A DNA stretch of 53,753 nucleotides from Planctomycetota bacterium. Lineage in GTDB: Bacteria > Planctomycetota > Phycisphaerae > UBA1845. The translations under genes were made by a program, and so were the position numbers. This document shows, one piece after another, positions 38,615 through 49,660 of this stretch. Positions within the stretch are counted from its first letter, which is position 1. Every line of letters starts with the position of its first letter. Where the stretch lies: NCBI GenBank assembly GCA_030616775.1, contig JAUWWQ010000028.1, positions 1-53,753 on the forward strand, written 5' to 3'. The notes below the pieces were generated by a model, which saw nothing but the letters and a program-made list of their open reading frames with translations, did not search any database and was not told where the DNA came from.

Positions 38615-39136
38615 ATGTCTGAACCGAACCATCATGGCAAAAGGATCGAGTCGGTAGCCTGTGCCGTTATAACCGTAAGTGACACCCGTACGCCCGACAC
38701 CGACAAGAGCGGCGCCATGATCCGTGAGCGGCTGGCGTCCGCAGGACATCGGGTTGTCAGCTATGATATCCTTCCTGATGAGCCGTGCCAAGTCCGTGAC
38801 CGGGTGGTGGCACTTTGCAGCGACGCGAGCTGCCAGGCCGTACTGCTAACCGGCGGCACGGGGCTCGCTCCGCGCGACACTACCTACGAAGCGATCACGG
38901 CCATTCTGGAAAAGCAGCTCGACGGCTTCGGCGAGCTGTTTCGGATGCTCAGCTACCAGGAGGTCGGACCGGCGGCCATGCTCTCACGGGCAATAGCCGG
39001 CACATGCAACTCTACGCTCGTCGTTTCCATGCCCGGCTCGACCGCAGCGGTCAGCCTGGCCATGGACAAACTAATCCTCCCCCAGATCGGCCACCTGGCC
39101 TACCTGCTGGAAAAGGTGTCAGGATGTATTTCTTGA
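38615..39136 (+). CDS. MoaB/Mog-type molybdenum cofactor protein, 3' end altered by a MITE
   Basis: The 173-residue protein has the MoaB/Mog fold motifs AVITVSDTR near 20, LLTGGTGLAPRDTTYEA near 88, and FGELFRMLSYQEVGPAAMLSRA near 111. NSTLVVSMPGSTAAVSLAM follows near 137-155. It adenylylates molybdopterin or inserts molybdate in cofactor synthesis. Its last eight codons (EKVSGCIS) and stop lie inside the 217-bp MITE that begins at 39111. The insertion therefore replaced the native end, which in homologues is similarly short, so the protein is probably still active. No other moa gene is nearby. Confidence 0.85.
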   Translation: MSEPNHHGKRIESVACAVITVSDTRTPDTDKSGAMIRERLASAGHRVVSYDILPDEPCQVRDRVVALCSDASCQAVLLTGGTGLAPRDTTYEAITAILEKQLDGFGELFRMLSYQEVGPAAMLSRAIAGTCNSTLVVSMPGSTAAVSLAMDKLILPQIGHLAYLLEKVSGCIS

Positions 39137-39327
39137 CATCGTGAGCGGGCTCGGTGAGTTTCGGTCATGGGACGGGCGCCTCGCGTCACTGAGCCGGAAC
39201 TTGCCTATCAGGTTTTGAGCCAGCGAGGCCTGGAAGGCCAGTGTCGCCAGTCGCCTGGAGCTCGACATCACACTTCGACCACGCGGACCCCCCGGGAGGA
39301 TATGCAAAAACCATCCCGACACCTTTG
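39111..39327 (+). mobile_element. 217-bp MITE (family A, copy 1)
   Basis: The ends AAAAGGTGTCAGGATG and CATCCCGACACCTTT form an imperfect terminal inverted repeat. The left part contains the start of a RAYT-like (REP-associated tyrosine transposase) ORF, MGRAPRVTEPELAYQVLSQR, resembling 'RPPRVTxxGLVYHAL' N-termini of that family. The rest of the transposase is missing, so the element is nonautonomous. It matches copy 2 (40377-40593) at equal length with scattered substitutions. The same strand and orientation are used by all copies. Confidence 0.7.
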
Positions 39328-40310: not shown

Positions 40311-40376
40311 TGGTCGGCTGACACCGGGCCACACAAGGCGGGGGCCGTTTCGCTTAATTCCCGCCGATCACGACGA

Positions 40377-40593
40377 AAAAGGTGTCAGGATGAATTTCTT
40401 GACATCGTGAGCGGGCTCGGTGAGCTTTGGGCATGGGACGACCGCCACGCGTCACTGAGCTGGGGCTTGTCTATCACGCCTTGAGCCAGCGAGACCTGGA
40501 AGGCCCGTGTCGCCAGTCGCCTGGAGCTCGACATCACACTTCGACCACGCGGACGCCCCCGAAAGGACACCCAAAAATCATCCCGACACCTTT
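40377..40593 (+). mobile_element. 217-bp MITE (family A, copy 2)
   Basis: Same length and architecture as the copy at 39111-39327. The left end is AAAAGGTGTCAGGATGAATT and the right end ATCATCCCGACACCTTT. The internal start is MGRPPRVTELGLVYHALSQR, which is closer to the RAYT consensus than copy 1. It ends 211 bases before the PatG-like gene. Confidence 0.75.
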
Positions 40594-40804: not shown

Positions 40805-43306
40805 GTGGAAAGAGATTATCAGCCAATCGTTGTTGAAGTGGAACAGCAGATCACCGCACAGGACGCCCTCACGCGGCGCATGCAAGTGGTAGTCGATCGC
40901 TTGTGGCATCACCTGCACGAAAAGAGAGTTTCCTGGGTGGGGTTTTACCTCAAGGTATCAGACCGCGACGAGATGGTCCTTGGACCGCACCGGGACAAGC
41001 CTGCTTGCTCCCCAATCGGCATGCAGGGAGCCTGTGGCCAAGCATTTCTTGACAAAAAGGCCCTCGTCTTCCGCAACGTGAAGGAATTGGGCGAGAGCTA
41101 CATCGCCTGCGATCCCCGTGATCAATCCGAAGTGGTCATACCGATCTACTGTGACCGATCGGCACAGCCCTGCGGTGTGTTGGACCTGGACAGTTTCGAC
41201 ATCGGGGCGTTTGATGAATCGGACGTCGAGGGGCTAAACCGTGTGCTCGCTGTGGCCGGATTACTGCCGCCATGTGACCAGAAGGTCGCACCGCCCGTTA
41301 GCGTAACGGCGTCAGCGTACAGCCATGCTGAGCCGCAATTCGCAGAAGCGATCGATTCACTTTGGCGAATCACTGTTGGCGATCCGCACGTTTGCGTCGC
41401 TGTCCTCGATGGGCCGGTCGATCGATCACACCCGGCCTTCGCGGATGCTGACCTGACGCTTCTGCCGACCCTTGTGCCCGCCGTGCCCGACGGCGGTCCC
41501 GCCTCGCAGCACGGCACCCACGTGGCCAGCGTGATCTTCGCGCGGCGCGAGGGCCGCCTTCGCGGGCTGGCGCCGCGATGTCGAGGGCTGATCGTCCCCA
41601 TCTACCGCGACGGGCCCGATGGTTCGCTGGCACCGTGCTCGCACATCGATCTCGCCCGCGCCCTGCTCCAAGCCGCTCAGCATGGCGCCAATGTTGTCAA
41701 CATCAGCGGCGGGCAACTCGAGCAGACCGGCACAGCCCACCCTCTCCTCGCCGATGCTGTCCAGACCTGCGCGGCCAGGGACGTTCTGATCGTGGCCGCG
41801 GCGGGAAACCAGGGCTGTGATTGCCTGAACGTGCCTGCGGCCCTACCCTCTGTGTTGGCGGTCGGTGCGATGGATTCACGAGGCGAGCCCCTCGAATTCA
41901 GTAACTGGGGCCAGTCTTATAGGACCCAAGGCATCCTGGCGCCTGGGAAGGATATACCAGGGGCAACGCCCGCTGGTGGGATCGTCACCCAAAGCGGCAC
42001 CAGCTATGCCACTGCGGTCGTCTCCGGCGTGGTCGGGCTCCTGCTGAGCCTGCAGCTCCAGCGGGGGCAGAGCCCCGACCCGCAATTCATCCGAAAAATA
42101 ATACTTGACAGCGCCCTGGGATGCGAATATCAGAGAATTGCAAGTTGCCGCCGTGTTCTGGCGGGTCGTCTTAACATCGCCGGGGCGGTATCGTCGGTCG
42201 TTGCAGGAGTACGCACCATGCATGATGAGAGCGAATCGCGCGAGAACGACGAATCCACTACCCCTGCCGGGGCGGATACCAATCCGGCCGCTGCCCAACT
42301 GCCCGCTCCTCAGGTGCAGCCTGCGGGATCCGGTGGTAATGGTCCCGAAGCATCTGGAACTCCGCCGCCACTGCCAACCGTAAGCACGGGAGATTCGCTC
42401 AAACAGCAGGAGGCCGAGGCTTCGCGCCCCGTGGAGCCCGCCCGTGTGAGCCCCTCGACCTGCGGTTGCGGGTGCGGGAGCGGCGCCCCGGCGCAGTTGG
42501 TCTATGCCCTCGGACAACTCGGGTTCGACTACGGAACCGAGGCCCGCCGGGATTCGATCATGCAGCACATGAAACAACCGGCTGACCCCCACGACCCCAA
42601 CCAACTACTCAACTACCTGGACAAGAACCCTTGGGACGCCACTGAGATTATTTGGACGCTGAATCTGGATGCAACGCCCATTTACGCGGTTCAACCTCAA
42701 GGCCCTTTCGCAAGCCAGGCTTGCGAAAGACTTTGCCAGTTTCTCAAGGAGCAGCTCACCGAAGGCGTTGAACGGAGCTCGCATCCGGGATGGATCGTGG
42801 GGAGCACCAGGCTGTTCACCGGACAGGTGGTCCCTGTCATTCACCCGGTCATGCGGGGTATGTATAGCTGGACAACCCGGGCTTTGGTCGAAGCGGGCTG
42901 CGGAAAGTCTCCTGCTGATAATGCTTCACAGGCTGCAAAGGATGCGTACGCACAGAAAGCGCAGGCTGTTGAGAACTTTCTTAGACGCGTCTACGATGAG
43001 CTGCGCAACCTCGGCGTGACGCCTCAGGAAAGGGCGATCAACTACTCGGCCACCAATGCCCTCCTAGTTGCGGAGGTTTTCAAAGACGCGATCAAGGAGG
43101 AGATGGATCTCGACACCATCGAGGTGGAGCGCAGTCCGATCTGCCGGCCCTATTCGGATTGCTGGGACGTCAAGCTTACTTTCTTCGACCCGAAAAAGGT
43201 GTTCGAGCGGGCCAAGAAAGTATATCGATTCTGCTGCGACGTGAGTGATCCCGTTCCCTGTATGGTCGGGGAGATCCGTTCCTGGGCGATAGCAAGAATT
43301 CCGTGA
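40805..43306 (+). CDS. fRMsr GAF domain fused to PatG-type subtilisin protease
   Basis: The 833-residue protein has three parts. Residues 1-150 form a GAF domain of the free-methionine-(R)-sulfoxide reductase type: WVGFYL at 44-49, Cys68, Cys77 and Cys102 in IACDPRDQSEVVIPI, and GVLDLDS at 124-130. All three cysteines used by the E. coli enzyme have counterparts. Residues 190-465 are an S8 protease with Asp202 (VAVLDGPVD), His236 (HGTHVAS), Asn335 (AAAGNQG) and Ser400 (GTSYATAVVSG). NVVNISGGQL, LAVGAMDSRGEPLEFSNWG and LAGRLNIAGAV closely follow PatA/PatG proteases that cut cyanobactin precursors. After a Pro/Ala-rich linker and CGCGCGSG (553-560) comes the PatG C-terminal domain (VYALGQLGFDYGTEARRDS, IIWTLNLDATPIYAV). 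No signal peptide is present, so it acts in the cytoplasm. The start is GTG. Confidence 0.85.
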   Translation: MERDYQPIVVEVEQQITAQDALTRRMQVVVDRLWHHLHEKRVSWVGFYLKVSDRDEMVLGPHRDKPACSPIGMQGACGQAFLDKKALVFRNVKELGESYIACDPRDQSEVVIPIYCDRSAQPCGVLDLDSFDIGAFDESDVEGLNRVLAVAGLLPPCDQKVAPPVSVTASAYSHAEPQFAEAIDSLWRITVGDPHVCVAVLDGPVDRSHPAFADADLTLLPTLVPAVPDGGPASQHGTHVASVIFARREGRLRGLAPRCRGLIVPIYRDGPDGSLAPCSHIDLARALLQAAQHGANVVNISGGQLEQTGTAHPLLADAVQTCAARDVLIVAAAGNQGCDCLNVPAALPSVLAVGAMDSRGEPLEFSNWGQSYRTQGILAPGKDIPGATPAGGIVTQSGTSYATAVVSGVVGLLLSLQLQRGQSPDPQFIRKIILDSALGCEYQRIASCRRVLAGRLNIAGAVSSVVAGVRTMHDESESRENDESTTPAGADTNPAAAQLPAPQVQPAGSGGNGPEASGTPPPLPTVSTGDSLKQQEAEASRPVEPARVSPSTCGCGCGSGAPAQLVYALGQLGFDYGTEARRDSIMQHMKQPADPHDPNQLLNYLDKNPWDATEIIWTLNLDATPIYAVQPQGPFASQACERLCQFLKEQLTEGVERSSHPGWIVGSTRLFTGQVVPVIHPVMRGMYSWTTRALVEAGCGKSPADNASQAAKDAYAQKAQAVENFLRRVYDELRNLGVTPQERAINYSATNALLVAEVFKDAIKEEMDLDTIEVERSPICRPYSDCWDVKLTFFDPKKVFERAKKVYRFCCDVSDPVPCMVGEIRSWAIARIP

Positions 43307-43327
43307 GTTTCTTAGGAGGATAACACG

Positions 43328-43528
43328 ATGAGGCTTCCAAAGCAGTCAGCAGGTATGATCCGTCATTTTACGCTGGGGAGTTACGTTGACGGAACGATTT
43401 CCCCGTCTTACTACAGGGGTCGTTTTCTTTCCTGGTATCACGATCTGTTTATATTTAATGAAGATCAGATGATAAACGGCATACACCAGGAGTTTGTGCG
43501 TGGCGTTGTTGTTCGAGAGTTTCCCTGA
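43328..43528 (+). CDS. 66-residue peptide, candidate precursor for the PatG-like protease
   Basis: The gene follows the protease stop by 21 bases and has the ribosome site TTAGGAGGATAACACG, the strongest in the window, suggesting high output. Its start MRLPKQSAGMIRHFTLGSY recalls the cyanobactin leader opening 'LPxQxxPVIR'. SYVDGTISPS near residues 18-27 loosely resembles the recognition element '(A/S)YDGxxxS'. The rest (residues 28-66) is aromatic-rich with no Cys. Whether a core peptide lies there is unknown. The precursor role is inference from position, size and these short matches. Confidence 0.55.
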   Translation: MRLPKQSAGMIRHFTLGSYVDGTISPSYYRGRFLSWYHDLFIFNEDQMINGIHQEFVRGVVVREFP

Positions 43529-43583: not shown

Positions 43584-43694
43584 ATGATCGGCCGATGGAT
43601 GGTTTGCACATCAGCCTTCATGGTACTGATGCAGAGGGAGTTGCTGATAGCGGGTCAAAGTCCATGCGCTAGACCGGAAAAGGTGTCAGGATGA
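43584..43694 (+). pseudogene. Small secreted-type ORF truncated by a MITE
   Basis: GAGGAGGGGGG lies just before ATG 43584. The frame encodes MIGRWMVCTSAFMVLMQREL and then LIAGQSPCARPEKVSG, 36 residues, beginning like a signal peptide. The last six codons (EKVSG and the stop) come from the MITE that starts at 43678, as in the moaB gene. The ORF is therefore probably the surviving N-terminus of a larger exported protein. Confidence 0.5.
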
Positions 43695-43750
43695 ATTTCT
43701 TGACATCGTGAGCGGGATCGGTAGGCTTTGGGTATGGGACGACCGCCGCG
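43678..43750 (+). mobile_element. MITE (family A, copy 3), left end only
   Basis: AAAAGGTGTCAGGATGAATT TCTTGACATCGTGAGCGGG and the following bases match copies 1 and 2 up to the RAYT-like start codon region (GGGACGACCGCC). The match then stops, and the right half with its inverted end is absent. The larE stop codon lies 15 bases further on the opposite strand. Confidence 0.65.
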
Positions 43751-43764
43751 CCAAGGCCCAATGT

Positions 43765-44589
43765 TTATTTCCCGATGACTTCGTTCATGCTGCCGCTGCG
43801 GAAGCCGCGGAGGTCCAGGGCGACGTAGGTATAGCCGAGTGAGCGGAAGTGGCGATCAATTCGTGCGGCGTTTTCGGGTTCGGCCAGCGTCTTGATGAAT
43901 ACCGGCGGGACCTCGATCCGGGCCAGGTTGCCGTGATGTCGGACCCGGCACTCGCGGATGTCCATCTCCTCGCGCAAGAACGCCTCGGCCAGCTCGATCA
44001 TGTGGAGCTTTTCCGGCGTAATCTGTTCGCCGTATGGTACACGGCTGGCCAGGCAGGGGCTGGCCGGCTTGTCGTGGGTCGGCAGGCCCAGGCGCTTTGA
44101 CAGCTCACGTATATCATCTTTGGTGAGGCCGGCTTCGGCGACGGGCGCTCGGACCTGATGTTCGTCAGCGGCCTGGAGGCCTGGTCGAAAGTCGCTCAGA
44201 TCGTCGGCGTTGTTGCCGTTGACGCCGGCCTTGATCCCCCGCTCGGCGATGAATCCCTTGAGGCGGGTGTAGAGCGCGGTCTTGCAGTGATAGCAGCGGT
44301 CGGCCGGGTTGGCCGTGTAATCGGGATTATCGAATTCATCGGTGTCGAGGACGACGTGCTCGGCGCCGACGGCATCGGCCAGCTTGCAGGCCTCCTCGAA
44401 TTCCGCCCGGGCTAGGCTGTCACTTCGGCCGGTGACGGCCACTACATTCTTGGGCCCGAGCGTGTCGATCGCCACTTTCAGAACGAACGTCGAGTCGACT
44501 CCGGCGCTAAAAGCAACGGCGATGCTTTCCAGCTCGCGGAGAATCTGCTGCATACGTTCGTATTTTTCATCGAGCGTTGGCTGTGTCAT
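43765..44589 (-). CDS. larE: LarE-type ATP-dependent sacrificial sulfur transferase
   Basis: The 274-residue protein has the PP-loop pyrophosphatase motif SAGVDST at 28-34. RCYHCKTALYTRLK follows near 98-112, then GVNGNNADDLSDFRPG near 122-137 and PASPCLASRVPYGEQ near 175-189. Cys179 of the last motif matches the sacrificial cysteine of LarE. This enzyme gives its sulfur to build the nickel-pincer cofactor of lactate racemase and relatives. larB and larC are not in the window, so the operon is split. The gene ends against a MITE fragment. Confidence 0.88.
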   Translation of the reverse strand: MTQPTLDEKYERMQQILRELESIAVAFSAGVDSTFVLKVAIDTLGPKNVVAVTGRSDSLARAEFEEACKLADAVGAEHVVLDTDEFDNPDYTANPADRCYHCKTALYTRLKGFIAERGIKAGVNGNNADDLSDFRPGLQAADEHQVRAPVAEAGLTKDDIRELSKRLGLPTHDKPASPCLASRVPYGEQITPEKLHMIELAEAFLREEMDIRECRVRHHGNLARIEVPPVFIKTLAEPENAARIDRHFRSLGYTYVALDLRGFRSGSMNEVIGK

Positions 44590-44918
44590 GTTAGTCCCGC
44601 CGCTGATTCACCCACCCTAGATCATAGCACGTGCTGTAGGCGTTGACCATCGCGGATCGAAGCGATTACCTCACCGGGGAGTCTATCCGTCGCAGGCGAG
44701 CTGCCTGGGGGTGCGGTCATATCGTACACCTACCGGTGCCTGCGTCCGTACATCCTGATGTAGGCGGGCGAGTGTTGGCTACGCCCATGCCGCTTCCTCA
44801 TCTGCCGCCGCCGGACGGCTCGGAGTGTGTACAATCGACAATCCGACAATCTCCAAGCGTCAATCGACAATCTGGTGGCTGCTTCCTTACGGGCGCGGCT
44901 CTGTTTCGCTACACGTTA
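44590..44918. other. 329-bp gap, no gene seen
   Basis: No supported ORF. It lies between larE and the TldE-like gene, both on the minus strand. A short repetitive run (GACAATC and AATCGACAATC) around 44830-44875 is the only feature. Confidence 0.4.
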
Positions 44919-46580
44919 TCACTTGTTGCGTTGGGCGGGGGATTTGAGGATGGGGAGTTTGTCGAATTCGCGTTCGATCTTGGTCAGTTCGAGTTCTTCA
45001 AAGACGATGGCGGGAGCAATGATGCTCACCGGGATGCCCGCGGGGGAGTTGTAGACCTTGCGTTCCGTGCCCGCGGCCAGGATGCGTCTGAGGGATCGGG
45101 TCTCTGTAGGCAAGAACTCCATGCCGCGGATGAGTTCCTCGCGGCCGTCGTCGACGTAGACCTTGTAGGCGTAGATGGGGTCGCCGAGCCCGCCGTATCC
45201 GCCCGCTTCCATCGACTCGATGCGCAGGCCGAACTCGAGTCCCTCGTCGCGGGCAGCCTGGATTAGCTTCTCCTTTAGCTCATCCGCTGACATACCGTTG
45301 TCATCATGGATGTACAAACATCCGATGGTGGCCTGTGCGTCGCCGTATCGGCCGCTGCGGCCGTGGCCTGTTGTCTTCTTGATCTTCCGGGTGGGGGCAC
45401 GGCCGGCAAGCAGTGTTTTCAAGACTCCCTTTTCGACCAGGGTGACCCGGCCGGGTAGGACGGCTTCGTCGTCGTAGGTGTATGCGCCGGCCAGAATGGT
45501 GTCTTCGAACCGCTGCGGCCCGGGATCGTCGTAGACGTTGAAAGAGCGTGGCAAGATGCGCTGGCCGATTTTCTTCTCCAGGCTGGTGTCACCCCAGCCG
45601 CCGCTGCCCAAAGGGATCGGAGTTGCACACAGGCCGTCAGCCAGTAAGGCGTGGAAGACCTTTCCCGCGGCTACCGGCTCGAACAGCACCGGTCCGGTAT
45701 AGTGCTCCAACACCGGGGCTTCGCTCAGTACATTCAGCTTCTTACACATCCGGTCGATGTCGGCGAGCATCTTTTCGATGGGTGGTAAATGATCGATTTG
45801 AAGACCGAGGTAGAACAGGTTGTCGGTAAGGTACATGCCTTCTTCGGCCTGGAGTCTGGCGTGAATCTCGACGGATACGCCGGTGTCGGCCGTGCGAAGG
45901 CGCGTCCCTTCGGAGTTGACGATCCATCGGTTCTCCGCGCCGGCAAAGAAGGTCACGCCGGAGTTTTGGATATTCGGGTATTGCTTGAATCTGGCTGATA
46001 ACTGCTCGATGTTATTCTCCCATTGTTTGTTGTCGAAGGCGATCTCGGCGGAGGGCTGGACGGCGCGGACGGGCTGTCCTGGTGAAAAGTCATCGGGTCG
46101 GTCTTCGACGGTTTTTTGCTTGAGGTAGGCCTGTTTACGGGTGAGGGTTTCCACGGCATGTTTGTAGTCGGTGTCGGTCATTTGCCAGACGGCGTGTCGA
46201 AGTGCCGCGATGTTGTCATCCAGTGGCAGGGCCGCCCGCCCACCGTATCCCCGGCCCATGTTCGTGTTGTCCAGCTTCGGGGAGCCTACACGGACCCGAC
46301 TGGTGACGAAGCGATACCGGTCCTGGTCGGACCGCAGCAGGGCCCCGTAAGCGGCACGCATGTTGAAGGCGAGGCGGTCCTGGGCGTTGTATTGGATGAA
46401 ATAGGGGCGGGGCAGGTCTTCGAGCATGAGAGCGTTCATCGAGCGCGCAAGTTCATCGACCAACGCCTTCATGGGGATGTCGTTATCGGGCAGCGCCCCA
46501 CCGCCCCGTGCGGCGGAGGCGACGGGCAAGAACAACATCACGCAGATACTAGCGATGGTCGCAGTGTTACGTCGCCACAT
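44919..46580 (-). CDS. Exported TldD/PmbA-family protein lacking the metal site
   Basis: The 553-residue product has a signal peptide (ATIASICVMLFLPVASAA) and the two-domain layout of TldD/TldE proteins, with EEAP-like central strands and the late GRVTLVEKGVLKTLL. Where active TldD has HExxxH, this sequence reads FHALLADGL (309-317): the first His is present but Glu and the second His are not. It therefore resembles TldE (PmbA), the non-metal partner. The adjacent gene upstream encodes a copy with HExxxH. E. coli TldD/TldE is cytoplasmic, so secretion is unusual. A supporting role to the active subunit is likely. Confidence 0.8.
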   Translation of the reverse strand: MWRRNTATIASICVMLFLPVASAARGGGALPDNDIPMKALVDELARSMNALMLEDLPRPYFIQYNAQDRLAFNMRAAYGALLRSDQDRYRFVTSRVRVGSPKLDNTNMGRGYGGRAALPLDDNIAALRHAVWQMTDTDYKHAVETLTRKQAYLKQKTVEDRPDDFSPGQPVRAVQPSAEIAFDNKQWENNIEQLSARFKQYPNIQNSGVTFFAGAENRWIVNSEGTRLRTADTGVSVEIHARLQAEEGMYLTDNLFYLGLQIDHLPPIEKMLADIDRMCKKLNVLSEAPVLEHYTGPVLFEPVAAGKVFHALLADGLCATPIPLGSGGWGDTSLEKKIGQRILPRSFNVYDDPGPQRFEDTILAGAYTYDDEAVLPGRVTLVEKGVLKTLLAGRAPTRKIKKTTGHGRSGRYGDAQATIGCLYIHDDNGMSADELKEKLIQAARDEGLEFGLRIESMEAGGYGGLGDPIYAYKVYVDDGREELIRGMEFLPTETRSLRRILAAGTERKVYNSPAGIPVSIIAPAIVFEELELTKIEREFDKLPILKSPAQRNK

Positions 46581-46665
46581 TCTGGAAGCTCCCCATAGCA
46601 GTAGTGCAGTGTTTCATAAATCTCTCAATTACTGTTGTGCGCCATGAGCAACTCGCCTGCGCATA

Positions 46666-46735
46666 CTCACTGGCGGATCCCGATGTACTTCGGGACCAGT
46701 GGCACCCCAAACGCCAGTGGCATCCCTCCGCGGCT
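46666..46735. repeat. GTGGCACC-type palindrome between the two TldD-like genes
   Basis: ACTGGCGGATCCCGATGTA and CTTCGGGACCAGTGGCACC form an imperfect dyad, followed by a second GCCAGTGGCATCCC. The same arrangement occurs near 39471 and 5858. Confidence 0.5.
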
Positions 46736-46743
46736 CGTTGGGG

Positions 46744-48471
46744 TCACGGCGCGTCGGCGCTCATGGGCGGCGGATCGAGAATCGGCGGTCGGTTTTGGCT
46801 CCGGACGCGCTTTTCGATTTCGATGGTCGAAACCAGGATACTTGGTGAGACCGCCGCGACCGGAATCCATCCGGACTCCGCCCCGCATGAACCATTGAAC
46901 ACAGCCGGATCATCACCCGTATGGGTGATTCTTTCAAAACAGGTAAGCGGCGTTCCCACAATGTCAACGCCGCGGATCGACTCGTCGGGGCGGCCGTCCG
47001 GGTAAACCCGATAGACCACGATCGGCAGCACCTTGAACGATTGCGGGCCACGGCGGCTCGTGGTCGTGAACCCGCCGGAGATATCCTCGAACAGAAGCCC
47101 GTACGGTTTGCCCTGCCGGTTGCACTCTTCGATCAGCAACTCGCGAAGCCGATCAAATGGGACCTGTTTCGTGGATTCCACGATCAGATTCGCCTGTCGT
47201 GAGACGACGGCGCGTCCCGACTGACGCCGGCCATGGCCGTTGGATTGGGGGAATCCCTCAATGGGACTTCGGGACATCAGGAAGGTTTTGAGAACCCCGC
47301 TGTCAACTAGTGTCACCCGGCTGGCTTTTGCACCCTCGTCGTCGTAGAGGTAATGTCCGCGCAGGTCGATGTCGCAGAGGCGCGTGATTGTCGGATCGTC
47401 ATGGACGTTGAGGAAATCCGGCAAAACGCGCTGGTTGATCTTTTTCTTGAAGGTCTGGCCTTCGGTGACGTCTTTTTGGCGGTGGCCCTCGATGCGGTGG
47501 CCGAAGATTTCGTGAAAGAAGACGCCGCTGGCCCGGTTGCGAAGGATGGCCGGGCCGATGTAGGGCTCAGCCAGCGGTGCGTCACGAAGTGCCAGGACCT
47601 GTTCGATCACACGCCTGAATGCTGCGGTGATCTCGGTATCATCGGGCAGTCTCCCGGGTGTGGCTGCGTTGAAATCAAAGGACTGGCCTACGTCCATGCC
47701 GTCGTCGGCCTTGGTGCCGGCTGTGAGCGTGATGCGGTAGCGCTTCTGTGCTGTTTGCAGCCGTGTGCCTTTACTTGTCACCATGTAGCGGGTGCCCGCG
47801 TAGGTGCCGATGGTGACGCTCGAGCCGTGTATCAGTGGGAAATCGCGAGCGATCGCGGATATCCTGCGCAGCCGATCCACCCAGGCCTCGCGGTCGAGCG
47901 CGAACACGGCGGGAGGTTCGTGAAACACGCTGGGCTCCTGGCGACTGAAGTCGTCGGAGGGGTCCTCCTCCTCGACCTTAACCTTCAGGTTGGTTTTGAT
48001 GCGTGTGAGCCTTTTCACGGCGCGTTTGAAGATCCGATCGGTATGATACCACAGGACATAGCGAATGGAGCCGGCATCGTCGGCAAGTGCAAGGGGGATA
48101 TTGCCGCTACCGGAGGCGCGGGACGCTCCACCGCCGCGAAGCTGATGCGTATTGTCCAGTGTGTAATCGCCGACGCGCAGGTCAAGGTTCAGGTTACGTT
48201 CGACCGTTTGCTGGTCGCGAGTGATCGCCCCCAACGTCGCGGAGATGACGGCGGTGTGTTCATCGTAAACCGTGTAGCTGATGTAGTACGGCCTGATACC
48301 GTCCGGTGCGACAAGATGCTCCATGGAGTAGGCGAGCTCATCAGCAAGGTAATTCATCAGCAGGCGGGGCCCAGCGGCAGTGTTCCGAGTGGAGGCGGGC
48401 TCATGGGCGGTCAGCGGACACGGAGCCAGCATTGCAACCGATGCAATCAGGAGAATTACGCTTACCTTCAT
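46744..48471 (-). CDS. Exported TldD-like metallopeptidase
   Basis: The 575-residue product has a signal peptide (VSVILLIASVAMLAPCPLTA), and the HExxxH zinc site is intact: FFHEIFGHRIEGH, with His320, Glu321 and His325. DFLNVHDDPTITRLCD and RVTLVDSGVLKTFLMSRSP follow as in TldD. TldD/TldE act on modified peptides in microcin B17 and other RiPP pathways. Here both members are exported, so substrates would be outside the cytoplasm. ATG 48471 has GGAAGGATGATTCC upstream. It follows a FIST gene by four bases and precedes the TldE-like gene by 163 bases. Confidence 0.85.
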   Translation of the reverse strand: MKVSVILLIASVAMLAPCPLTAHEPASTRNTAAGPRLLMNYLADELAYSMEHLVAPDGIRPYYISYTVYDEHTAVISATLGAITRDQQTVERNLNLDLRVGDYTLDNTHQLRGGGASRASGSGNIPLALADDAGSIRYVLWYHTDRIFKRAVKRLTRIKTNLKVKVEEEDPSDDFSRQEPSVFHEPPAVFALDREAWVDRLRRISAIARDFPLIHGSSVTIGTYAGTRYMVTSKGTRLQTAQKRYRITLTAGTKADDGMDVGQSFDFNAATPGRLPDDTEITAAFRRVIEQVLALRDAPLAEPYIGPAILRNRASGVFFHEIFGHRIEGHRQKDVTEGQTFKKKINQRVLPDFLNVHDDPTITRLCDIDLRGHYLYDDEGAKASRVTLVDSGVLKTFLMSRSPIEGFPQSNGHGRRQSGRAVVSRQANLIVESTKQVPFDRLRELLIEECNRQGKPYGLLFEDISGGFTTTSRRGPQSFKVLPIVVYRVYPDGRPDESIRGVDIVGTPLTCFERITHTGDDPAVFNGSCGAESGWIPVAAVSPSILVSTIEIEKRVRSQNRPPILDPPPMSADAP

Positions 48472-48475
48472 GGAA

Positions 48476-49660
48476 TCATCCTTCCAACTGATTGTCCGGT
48501 TGGCGAAAGAGCGCGATGCTGGCGGTGAAGCCGTGGATGAAGTTGGTCCCACCGATCGGGCCGAACTCACCGCCACAGAAAAGCCCCGCTACCGGGACGT
48601 CACCCAGTAGCTCGCGCAAGACGCCCACGTCGTGTCCGGGTTCCGGCCACATCTGTGTGCCACGGCCGTTGCACCCGAAAAGCAGGGCGCCGCGGACCCC
48701 GGTATCGGCATGCGGTGAGAGCATTGTGCGCAGATCCTCGTCAGCGCTGGCACCGTCGCGCACGTGAAACTGCACGGTAGCACCAACGCGGGCATTACCT
48801 GCGATGGCCATGGCTCCATTGTGCCGGTCCACACCGATGATGTTGTGGATCAGGAAATCGCCGCGGGTGAAGCGATCTTTGTACTCGTCGATGACCCGGC
48901 CGACGAATAGCGATTGCTTTACGAGCCGTTCATCCTCCTTGGACAACCTTACAAGCACGTTTTGTAGTTGCTCGAGGGCGGCCCGACCGCCGAGCTCGCG
49001 GATTACATTTCGTTCAGCCTTGGTGATGACAAAGGGCTTGCCGATGGGCCGGCAGCCCTGGGATACGACCGTGTCGACGGCAAGGAGACCGGTCAAGGCG
49101 ATCCCGACCATTCCCTCACGGTGGATATCACCGTTTAGTATGAGCCTGTTCTGCTGAGGCATGCGGGCGGCGCTGGCCACCCCGCCGACCAATGGGCTGC
49201 CGGGGTACGCCTCGTTGATCTGCTCGATGAAGTCATGGATCGCCAGGCGAAACGGATCAGCCAGGGCCACAAAGGTTGGCCGGCTTTCCGGTGATACGCC
49301 GACGATGCGTTCCCAGTCTAACGGTGTTCCTATGGATTCCAGATCACTCTGCACCATGTAGAAGGGACGGATCTCCACGTCGGGCATCGACGCGACCAGC
49401 AGCGACATGGAAGGCACACGCTCCAGCTCTTTGTCAAAGCCGATCGTTCCCTCCGCCGTGCAACCTAGAAGCACCGCACCGGGGAAACTGGTACCGATCC
49501 GGTCGATCACATCAGCCAAGTGATCTTTGAAGTGCTTCGTGATAAACAGCAGAGCCAGGTCCACCATGCCGCGTGTCAACCGCGAATCAATCGGTTCAAG
49601 CAGCTCGTCGACTGCCTGGGGGGCGTCGGTGGCCTCGGTGATAGATGATGCAAATCGCAC
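48476..49660 (-). CDS. FIST-domain signal transduction protein
   Basis: The 394-residue protein has the FIST N domain (LALLFITKHFKDHLADVID, VLLGCTAEGTIG, SMSLLVASMPDVEI) and the FIST C domain (LFVGRVIDEYKDRF, DFLIHNIIGVD, GALLFGCNGRG and GLFCGGEFGPIGG). FIST is thought to sense small ligands, perhaps amino acids. No output domain is attached. GTG 49660 with an upstream GAGG is used; a TTG 36 bases earlier is possible. It is four bases from the TldD gene, so the three genes form an operon in which the sensor may regulate the protease pair. The link is inferred. Confidence 0.8.
   Translation of the reverse strand: MRFASSITEATDAPQAVDELLEPIDSRLTRGMVDLALLFITKHFKDHLADVIDRIGTSFPGAVLLGCTAEGTIGFDKELERVPSMSLLVASMPDVEIRPFYMVQSDLESIGTPLDWERIVGVSPESRPTFVALADPFRLAIHDFIEQINEAYPGSPLVGGVASAARMPQQNRLILNGDIHREGMVGIALTGLLAVDTVVSQGCRPIGKPFVITKAERNVIRELGGRAALEQLQNVLVRLSKEDERLVKQSLFVGRVIDEYKDRFTRGDFLIHNIIGVDRHNGAMAIAGNARVGATVQFHVRDGASADEDLRTMLSPHADTGVRGALLFGCNGRGTQMWPEPGHDVGVLRELLGDVPVAGLFCGGEFGPIGGTNFIHGFTASIALFRQPDNQLEG

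Follow-up and report, generated by a model that had tools for sequence, protein, structure and literature searches.

A PatA-type protease and a small leader-bearing open reading frame as a candidate two-gene peptide-maturation unit in a Planctomycetota genome

We examined a small open reading frame (ORF) that follows a gene for a PatA-type cyanobactin maturation protease in a 53,753-nucleotide contig of a Planctomycetota bacterium (JAUWWQ010000028.1, assembly GCA_030616775.1; the whole contig is referred to here as the window). We consider it highly probable, judging from the sequences, that the two genes form a peptide-maturation unit whose product would be a peptide of about 39 residues, linear and unmodified, and the ORF is very probably the substrate of the adjoining protease. 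The ORF would be translated into a 66-residue precursor (MRLPKQSAGMIRHFTLGSYVDGTISPSYYRGRFLSWYHDLFIFNEDQMINGIHQEFVRGVVVREFP) whose N-terminal motif, MRLPKQSAGMIR, would mark it for recognition by the protease, perhaps through the C-terminal domain of unknown function (DUF) of that enzyme. A predicted cut after the sequence TISPS, which resembles recognition sequence II (RSII) of cyanobactin precursors, would then release the peptide. Coordinates are given in Table 1.

The small ORF and the adjoining protease

An earlier note on this DNA had placed a 66-residue ORF 21 bases after the protease, behind an AGGAGG ribosome site, and the sequence bears this out. The stretch LPKQSAGMIR, with which the peptide was said to begin, is present, but the peptide opens MRLPKQ and the stretch covers residues 3-12. 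This opening follows the leader pattern M[KR][LIM]PxQ...(V/I)xR. The combined pattern of ribosome site and leader, GGAG-N4-10-ATG-[K/R-like]-x-P-x-Q, had a single match across the 4.45 Mb of the genome, at this ORF, and none in the reversed control. When a start-anchored leader profile built from other loci, without the window sequence, was applied to the 2,599 open starts in the window, the ORF scored 19.8 and the runner-up 8.7. An earlier free-start profile gave no separation (16.3 for the ORF vs maxima of 10-18.6 in codon-shuffled windows); the genome-wide statistics rest on the pattern and family searches. The 66-residue peptide had no match in Pfam or in NCBIfam (the latter at E up to 1), and a profile of 22 precursors matched no PDB sequence.

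The protease consists of a weak GAF-like N-terminus, an S8 domain, a linker, and the PatG_D/PatG_C DUF. Its catalytic triad is intact (Asp202, His236, and Ser400 in the S8 domain), and its match to TIGR03895, at 709 bits with a curated cut-off of 421, places it in that family. PatA itself is built of an S8 protease and a C-terminal DUF (PMC4259220). The earlier note had called the enzyme PatG-like; on sequence comparison it is instead of PatA type, scoring 320 bits against the PatA structures 4h6w/3zxx vs 148 bits against the PatG macrocyclase 4aks. The catalytic Asp and His lie 34 residues apart, compared with 35 in PatA and 70 in PatG (4aks), and between them the protease aligns nearly ungapped to PatA. 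The extra spacing in PatG is made up of inserted capping helices and is tied to its macrocyclase role. This insertion is absent from the window protease, so macrocyclisation by it is not expected, and a macrocyclised product was rejected on this ground. The DUF matched PatG-DUF 4uvq at 214 bits. A GAF_2 match at the N-terminus reached 23.9 bits, under its cut-off; this weak GAF-like domain (window 40805-41300) is possibly regulatory.

The linker between the S8 domain and the DUF contains RVSPS-TCGCGCG, from residue 547. A motif of the form xΦxP[SA] was present in the linkers of all 15 proteases in which an S8-DUF linker could be delimited, where 4.7 were expected from shuffled linkers (window, L010, L011, L015, L021, L023, L063-L067, L071, L073, L075, and L076). 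This suggests that the S8 and DUF domains may be separated by self-cleavage at the motif. The motif often precedes a Cys-rich CGC stretch.

Table 1. Features of the proposed unit in the window and of related loci
Feature	Position	Strand	Basis or remark
PatA-type cyanobactin maturation protease, 833 aa	40805..43306	+	TIGR03895, PF00082, PF18047, PF18065
RVSPS in S8-DUF linker, possible self-cleavage site	42443..42457	+	just before TCGCGCG
Shine-Dalgarno AGGAGG	43314..43319	+	8 nt before ATG; with the leader pattern, unique genome-wide
Putative precursor gene, 66 aa	43328..43528, stop included	+	sequence, leader profile, locus survey
Leader motif LPKQSAGMIR, residues 3-12	43334..43363	+	conserved in leaders of other loci
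Predicted cleavage site TISPS, residues 23-27	43394..43408	+	resembles cyanobactin RSII G(L/V)E(A/P)S
Predicted released peptide, 39 aa	43409..43525	+	inferred from the cleavage site
Repeat copy, probable transposon remnant	39111..39293	+	
Repeat copy	40374..40560	+	just upstream of protease
Repeat copy	43675..43751	+	just downstream of precursor
Phospholipase A2 (PLA2)-like leader ORFs	L062, 149 nt after protease; L067, +4926; L068, +2066		
Streptomyces leader-peptide arrays	L026 8743-9729; L027 8466-9608; L028 8631-10030; L029 5116-6085		cores short, mostly amphipathic/hydrophobic

Leader ORFs beside related proteases

A genome scan and plasmid records supplied the first loci for comparison: Nitrospira (L010, L012), Chloroflexi (L011), the window's own phylum (G105, L015), and plasmids of Acaryochloris (L021), Gloeocapsa (L022), Nostoc (L024), and Streptomyces (L026-L029). 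In all of them, the protease was closely followed by small ORFs on its own strand, which opened with M[KRN][LIM]PxQ...(V/I)xR, with a short N-terminal extension before the motif in Streptomyces. Many leader ORFs at related loci lack annotation. As a held-out set, 16 genomes of the class to which G105 belongs were collected by protease family alone, and the profile derived from the first loci was applied to their flanks at a preset score. Leader ORFs were found in 12 of the 14 loci with usable sequence, 11 downstream of the protease and 1 just upstream, with 21 matches on the protease strand vs 3 on the other. The two misses, L066 and L076, had leader-like ORFs on inspection.

In the final survey, leader ORFs adjoined the protease in 22/22 loci (35 on the protease strand vs 1 on the opposite), a count that uses a rule of motif plus ribosome site widened after the data were seen, and that leaves out L069 and L075, which run off the contig, and L078, where the protease is frame-broken. 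In 20 loci, the first leader ORF lay 22-175 nt past the protease stop; in the other 2, it directly preceded the protease. The family occurs behind PatA-type proteases in at least five phyla (the window's own, Nitrospirota, Chloroflexota, and Cyanobacteriota, plus the Streptomyces plasmids). On the Streptomyces plasmids, it forms tandem copies with a near-constant leader and a variable core, for example FLPLLGALGSLLF and FFPLLAGLASLLF. Each of these arrays closes with a further LPVQ-type ORF whose C-terminal part differs (e.g. L026 9844, L028 10290).

Alignment of the precursors (alignment A1) revealed a second recurring motif after the leader, of the form xΦx[PA]S. The strict form of this site, G[IVL]x[PA][SADNQ], was present in 25 of 31 precursors, where shuffling predicts 1.2. 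In PatA processing, the recognition sequence is G(L/V)E(A/P)S and the cut follows it (PMC10885120). The window sequence TISPS is a relaxed form of the site, with a shuffle p of 0.014 taken alone. Sites of relatives such as EVQPQ, RLAPS, EIAPS, and QVIPS indicate that Gly is not universal, and a strict requirement for Gly was discarded as it fails for the window and several relatives. The earlier note's proposal of a precursor behind the protease is thus supported: ORFs of this kind do accompany related proteases, and their alignment across phyla gives a conserved leader, a cleavage-like site, and a variable core.

Predicted product and rival explanations

The predicted cut after Ser27 would leave YYRGRFLSWYHDLFIFNEDQMINGIHQEFVRGVVVREFP, a core with no Cys, a net charge of -1, and possibly a helical fold. 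A single-sequence AlphaFold2 model of the peptide gave a helix at residues 26-64 at a predicted local distance difference test (pLDDT) score of 63.6, a low confidence, and was not used as evidence. At most related loci, the cargo consists of Cys-rich mini-proteins, while several Streptomyces cores are amphipathic helices (p 0.001-0.03). Across relatives, the cargo is from 10 to over 100 residues long. Leader-bearing ORFs of three loci carry PLA2-like cargo, with PF00068 matches at E 3e-4 (L062) and 1e-3 (L067), below the curated cut-off, and recognition by the His-Asp/Cys pattern only in L068; the leader is accordingly not confined to short peptides. The amphipathic, membrane-active-like Streptomyces cores and the PLA2-like cargo in the window's phylum imply that the products of this family may be antimicrobial or secreted effectors. 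By analogy with the cargo of relatives, a bacteriocin-like or other secreted effector would be the likeliest role of the released window peptide. An antimicrobial helix was considered for the window peptide and not adopted, as its core gave no amphipathic signal.

Several observations weigh against a functional precursor-protease pair. TISPS has Thr where Gly is expected. The core differs from those of most non-Streptomyces relatives in having no Cys, and amphipathicity was not detected in it, so that neither property points to a function. No full-length relative of the 66-residue peptide was found in the data. The G+C content of the ORF is 0.46 vs 0.61 for the protease gene, a difference that could reflect decay or a separate origin.

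In an unlikely reading, horizontal transfer left behind a precursor that has since decayed or lost its function. The low G+C, the relaxed cleavage site, and the missing Cys would fit such decay, as would the repeats that flank the unit and the absence of the protease from every other searched genome of the order; the start, leader, and site are nonetheless intact, the ribosome site is strong, and the protease retains its full triad. An ORF that is open behind the protease by chance is hardly credible: the lack of a full-length relative would be expected of one, but an independent profile ranked this ORF at the top of all window starts, the ribosome site and motif occur together once in the genome, and the same arrangement recurs in 22/22 loci.

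It is quite improbable that the product of the ORF is an accessory protein akin to PatB instead of a precursor. The PatB of a canonical cyanobactin cluster (L023 10550-10765) does open with the same leader as the precursors, MRLPKLAPPVKR, and the PatB/AcyB/McaB family (TIGR04220) shares the MRLPK...VxR opening. The leader is all that the window peptide has in common with it; the C-terminal part is unrelated, and no match to TIGR04220 or any NCBIfam model was found at E up to 1. Relatives of the peptide, moreover, possess an RSII-like site, are hypervariable toward the C-terminus, and often occur as tandem copies. We regard it as very improbable that the product of a true precursor is also closed into a ring, by the protease or a host enzyme, in the manner of PatG in cyanobactins. 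Such a reading could draw on the kinship of PatA and PatG proteases and on SYVDG, just before TISPS, which loosely resembles the AYDG recognition element. SYVDG, however, precedes the core, with no AYDG-like sequence (RSIII) past residue 27; the Asp-His spacing of the protease is that of PatA; and the genome contains a single TIGR03895 member, the window protease, with no second PatA/PatG protease. Where the earlier note had allowed for a cleaved or a macrocyclised product, cleavage is therefore favored and macrocyclisation is not supported. Its remark that modification enzymes are missing holds more widely: no YcaO protein was found in the whole genome (98% complete), and the eight nearest flanking genes gave no match to a modification enzyme. 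A linear, unmodified peptide is thus the simplest product of the proposed unit.

Relation to cyanobactin systems and genomic setting

The locus resembles cyanobactin biosynthesis (PatA/PatE/PatG/PatD; PMC10885120, PMC4663559) in its PatA-type S8-DUF protease and in its short precursor with an N-terminal leader, an RSII-like site, and hypervariable cargo. It differs in that the host is not a cyanobacterium, its genome lacks the PatG macrocyclase and YcaO (PatD), and the cargo of the leader family is often Cys-rich instead of forming short macrocycles. The adjoining ORF is not PatB, and the flanking genes, to which the comparison for PatB and PatC was confined, match other Pfam families; no prenyltransferase was found among the neighbors. 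A cyanobactin cluster has both A and G proteases, of which only one TIGR03895 member is present here, and an E precursor with leader and RSII, which the ORF matches with its relaxed RSII. The locus would act like the first step of cyanobactin maturation and is not a cyanobactin cluster. It has the leader-core precursor beside a maturation enzyme that is general to ribosomally synthesized and post-translationally modified peptides (RiPPs) and lacks the YcaO cyclodehydratase of thiazole/oxazole-modified microcins (TOMMs) and other azol(in)e RiPPs. Strict RiPP status, with modification beyond cleavage, looks unlikely for the predicted product.

Among known systems, the linear cyanobactins (aeruginosamides, viridisamide) share a linear product and a cyanobactin-type precursor; they have 3-5 residues, carry prenyl and methyl groups and a thiazole, and come from clusters that encode the enzymes concerned (PMC4663559). 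In Streptomyces scabies, an actinomycete, a cyanobactin-type DUF protein, SCAB_66631, lies beside four short peptides (PMC7369419); it was reported as an ambiguous genome-mining match by DUF homology only, in a passage that gives no leader family, site, or distribution. This locus is probably the nearest published sighting. No description of the LPxQ leader family was found in the open-access literature searched, subscription papers being outside that scope.

Over the leader stretch, two relatives gave weak matches to models of cyanobactin precursors, TIGR03678 and TIGR04446 (E 0.06 and 0.04). Together with the PatB opening, these matches suggest that the leaders of cyanobactin-type precursors and of LPxQ ORFs share descent. 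PatB and PatC are reported to be non-essential and of unknown role, and the DUF is unexplained (PMC4259220, PMC4663559). Our analysis suggests roles for two of these: PatB as a leader carrier and the PatA/PatG DUF as a possible leader reader. Solitary PatA-type proteases are annotated as "cyanobactin maturation protease" in bacteria unable to make cyanobactins; for these proteases, a substrate, a recognition motif, and a cut site can now be proposed in a form that experiments can test. Searching beside TIGR03895 for M[KR][LIM]PxQ followed by xΦx[PA]S exposed many unannotated small genes. We put at about even chances a broader proposal, in which the PatA-type protease and the LPxQ/ΦxPS leader form a widespread stand-alone system that matures diverse unmodified cargos (amphipathic peptides, disulfide-rich mini-proteins, and PLA2-like enzymes). 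In that view, cyanobactin clusters would be one specialized offshoot that had gained PatG and tailoring enzymes, and PatB, with the leader it shares, would be a relic or a decoy substrate.

The eight nearest flanking genes belong to the FG-GAP, RF-1, MoCF, NAD_synthase/QueC, TldD/PmbA (two genes), FIST, and PurL families. The NAD_synthase/QueC-family neighbor is LarE-like by sequence and, with the two TldD/PmbA-family metallopeptidase genes, lies downstream of the unit (window 43765-48576, minus strand). TldD/E cut other RiPP leaders. These genes were not adopted as pathway members, being on the opposite strand with no link seen to the unit.

A search of 113 other genomes of the same order found no TIGR03895 protease, and none was found in viral contigs and phage genomes. 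The window protease groups with Nitrospira proteases (support 97/96) and not with those of its own phylum. The genome contains a repeat 11 times, in complete or partial form, and the copies are probably what is left of a transposable element; those at 40374 and 43675 bracket the protease and precursor. Horizontal acquisition of the two genes would fit both the Nitrospira grouping and the flanking repeats.
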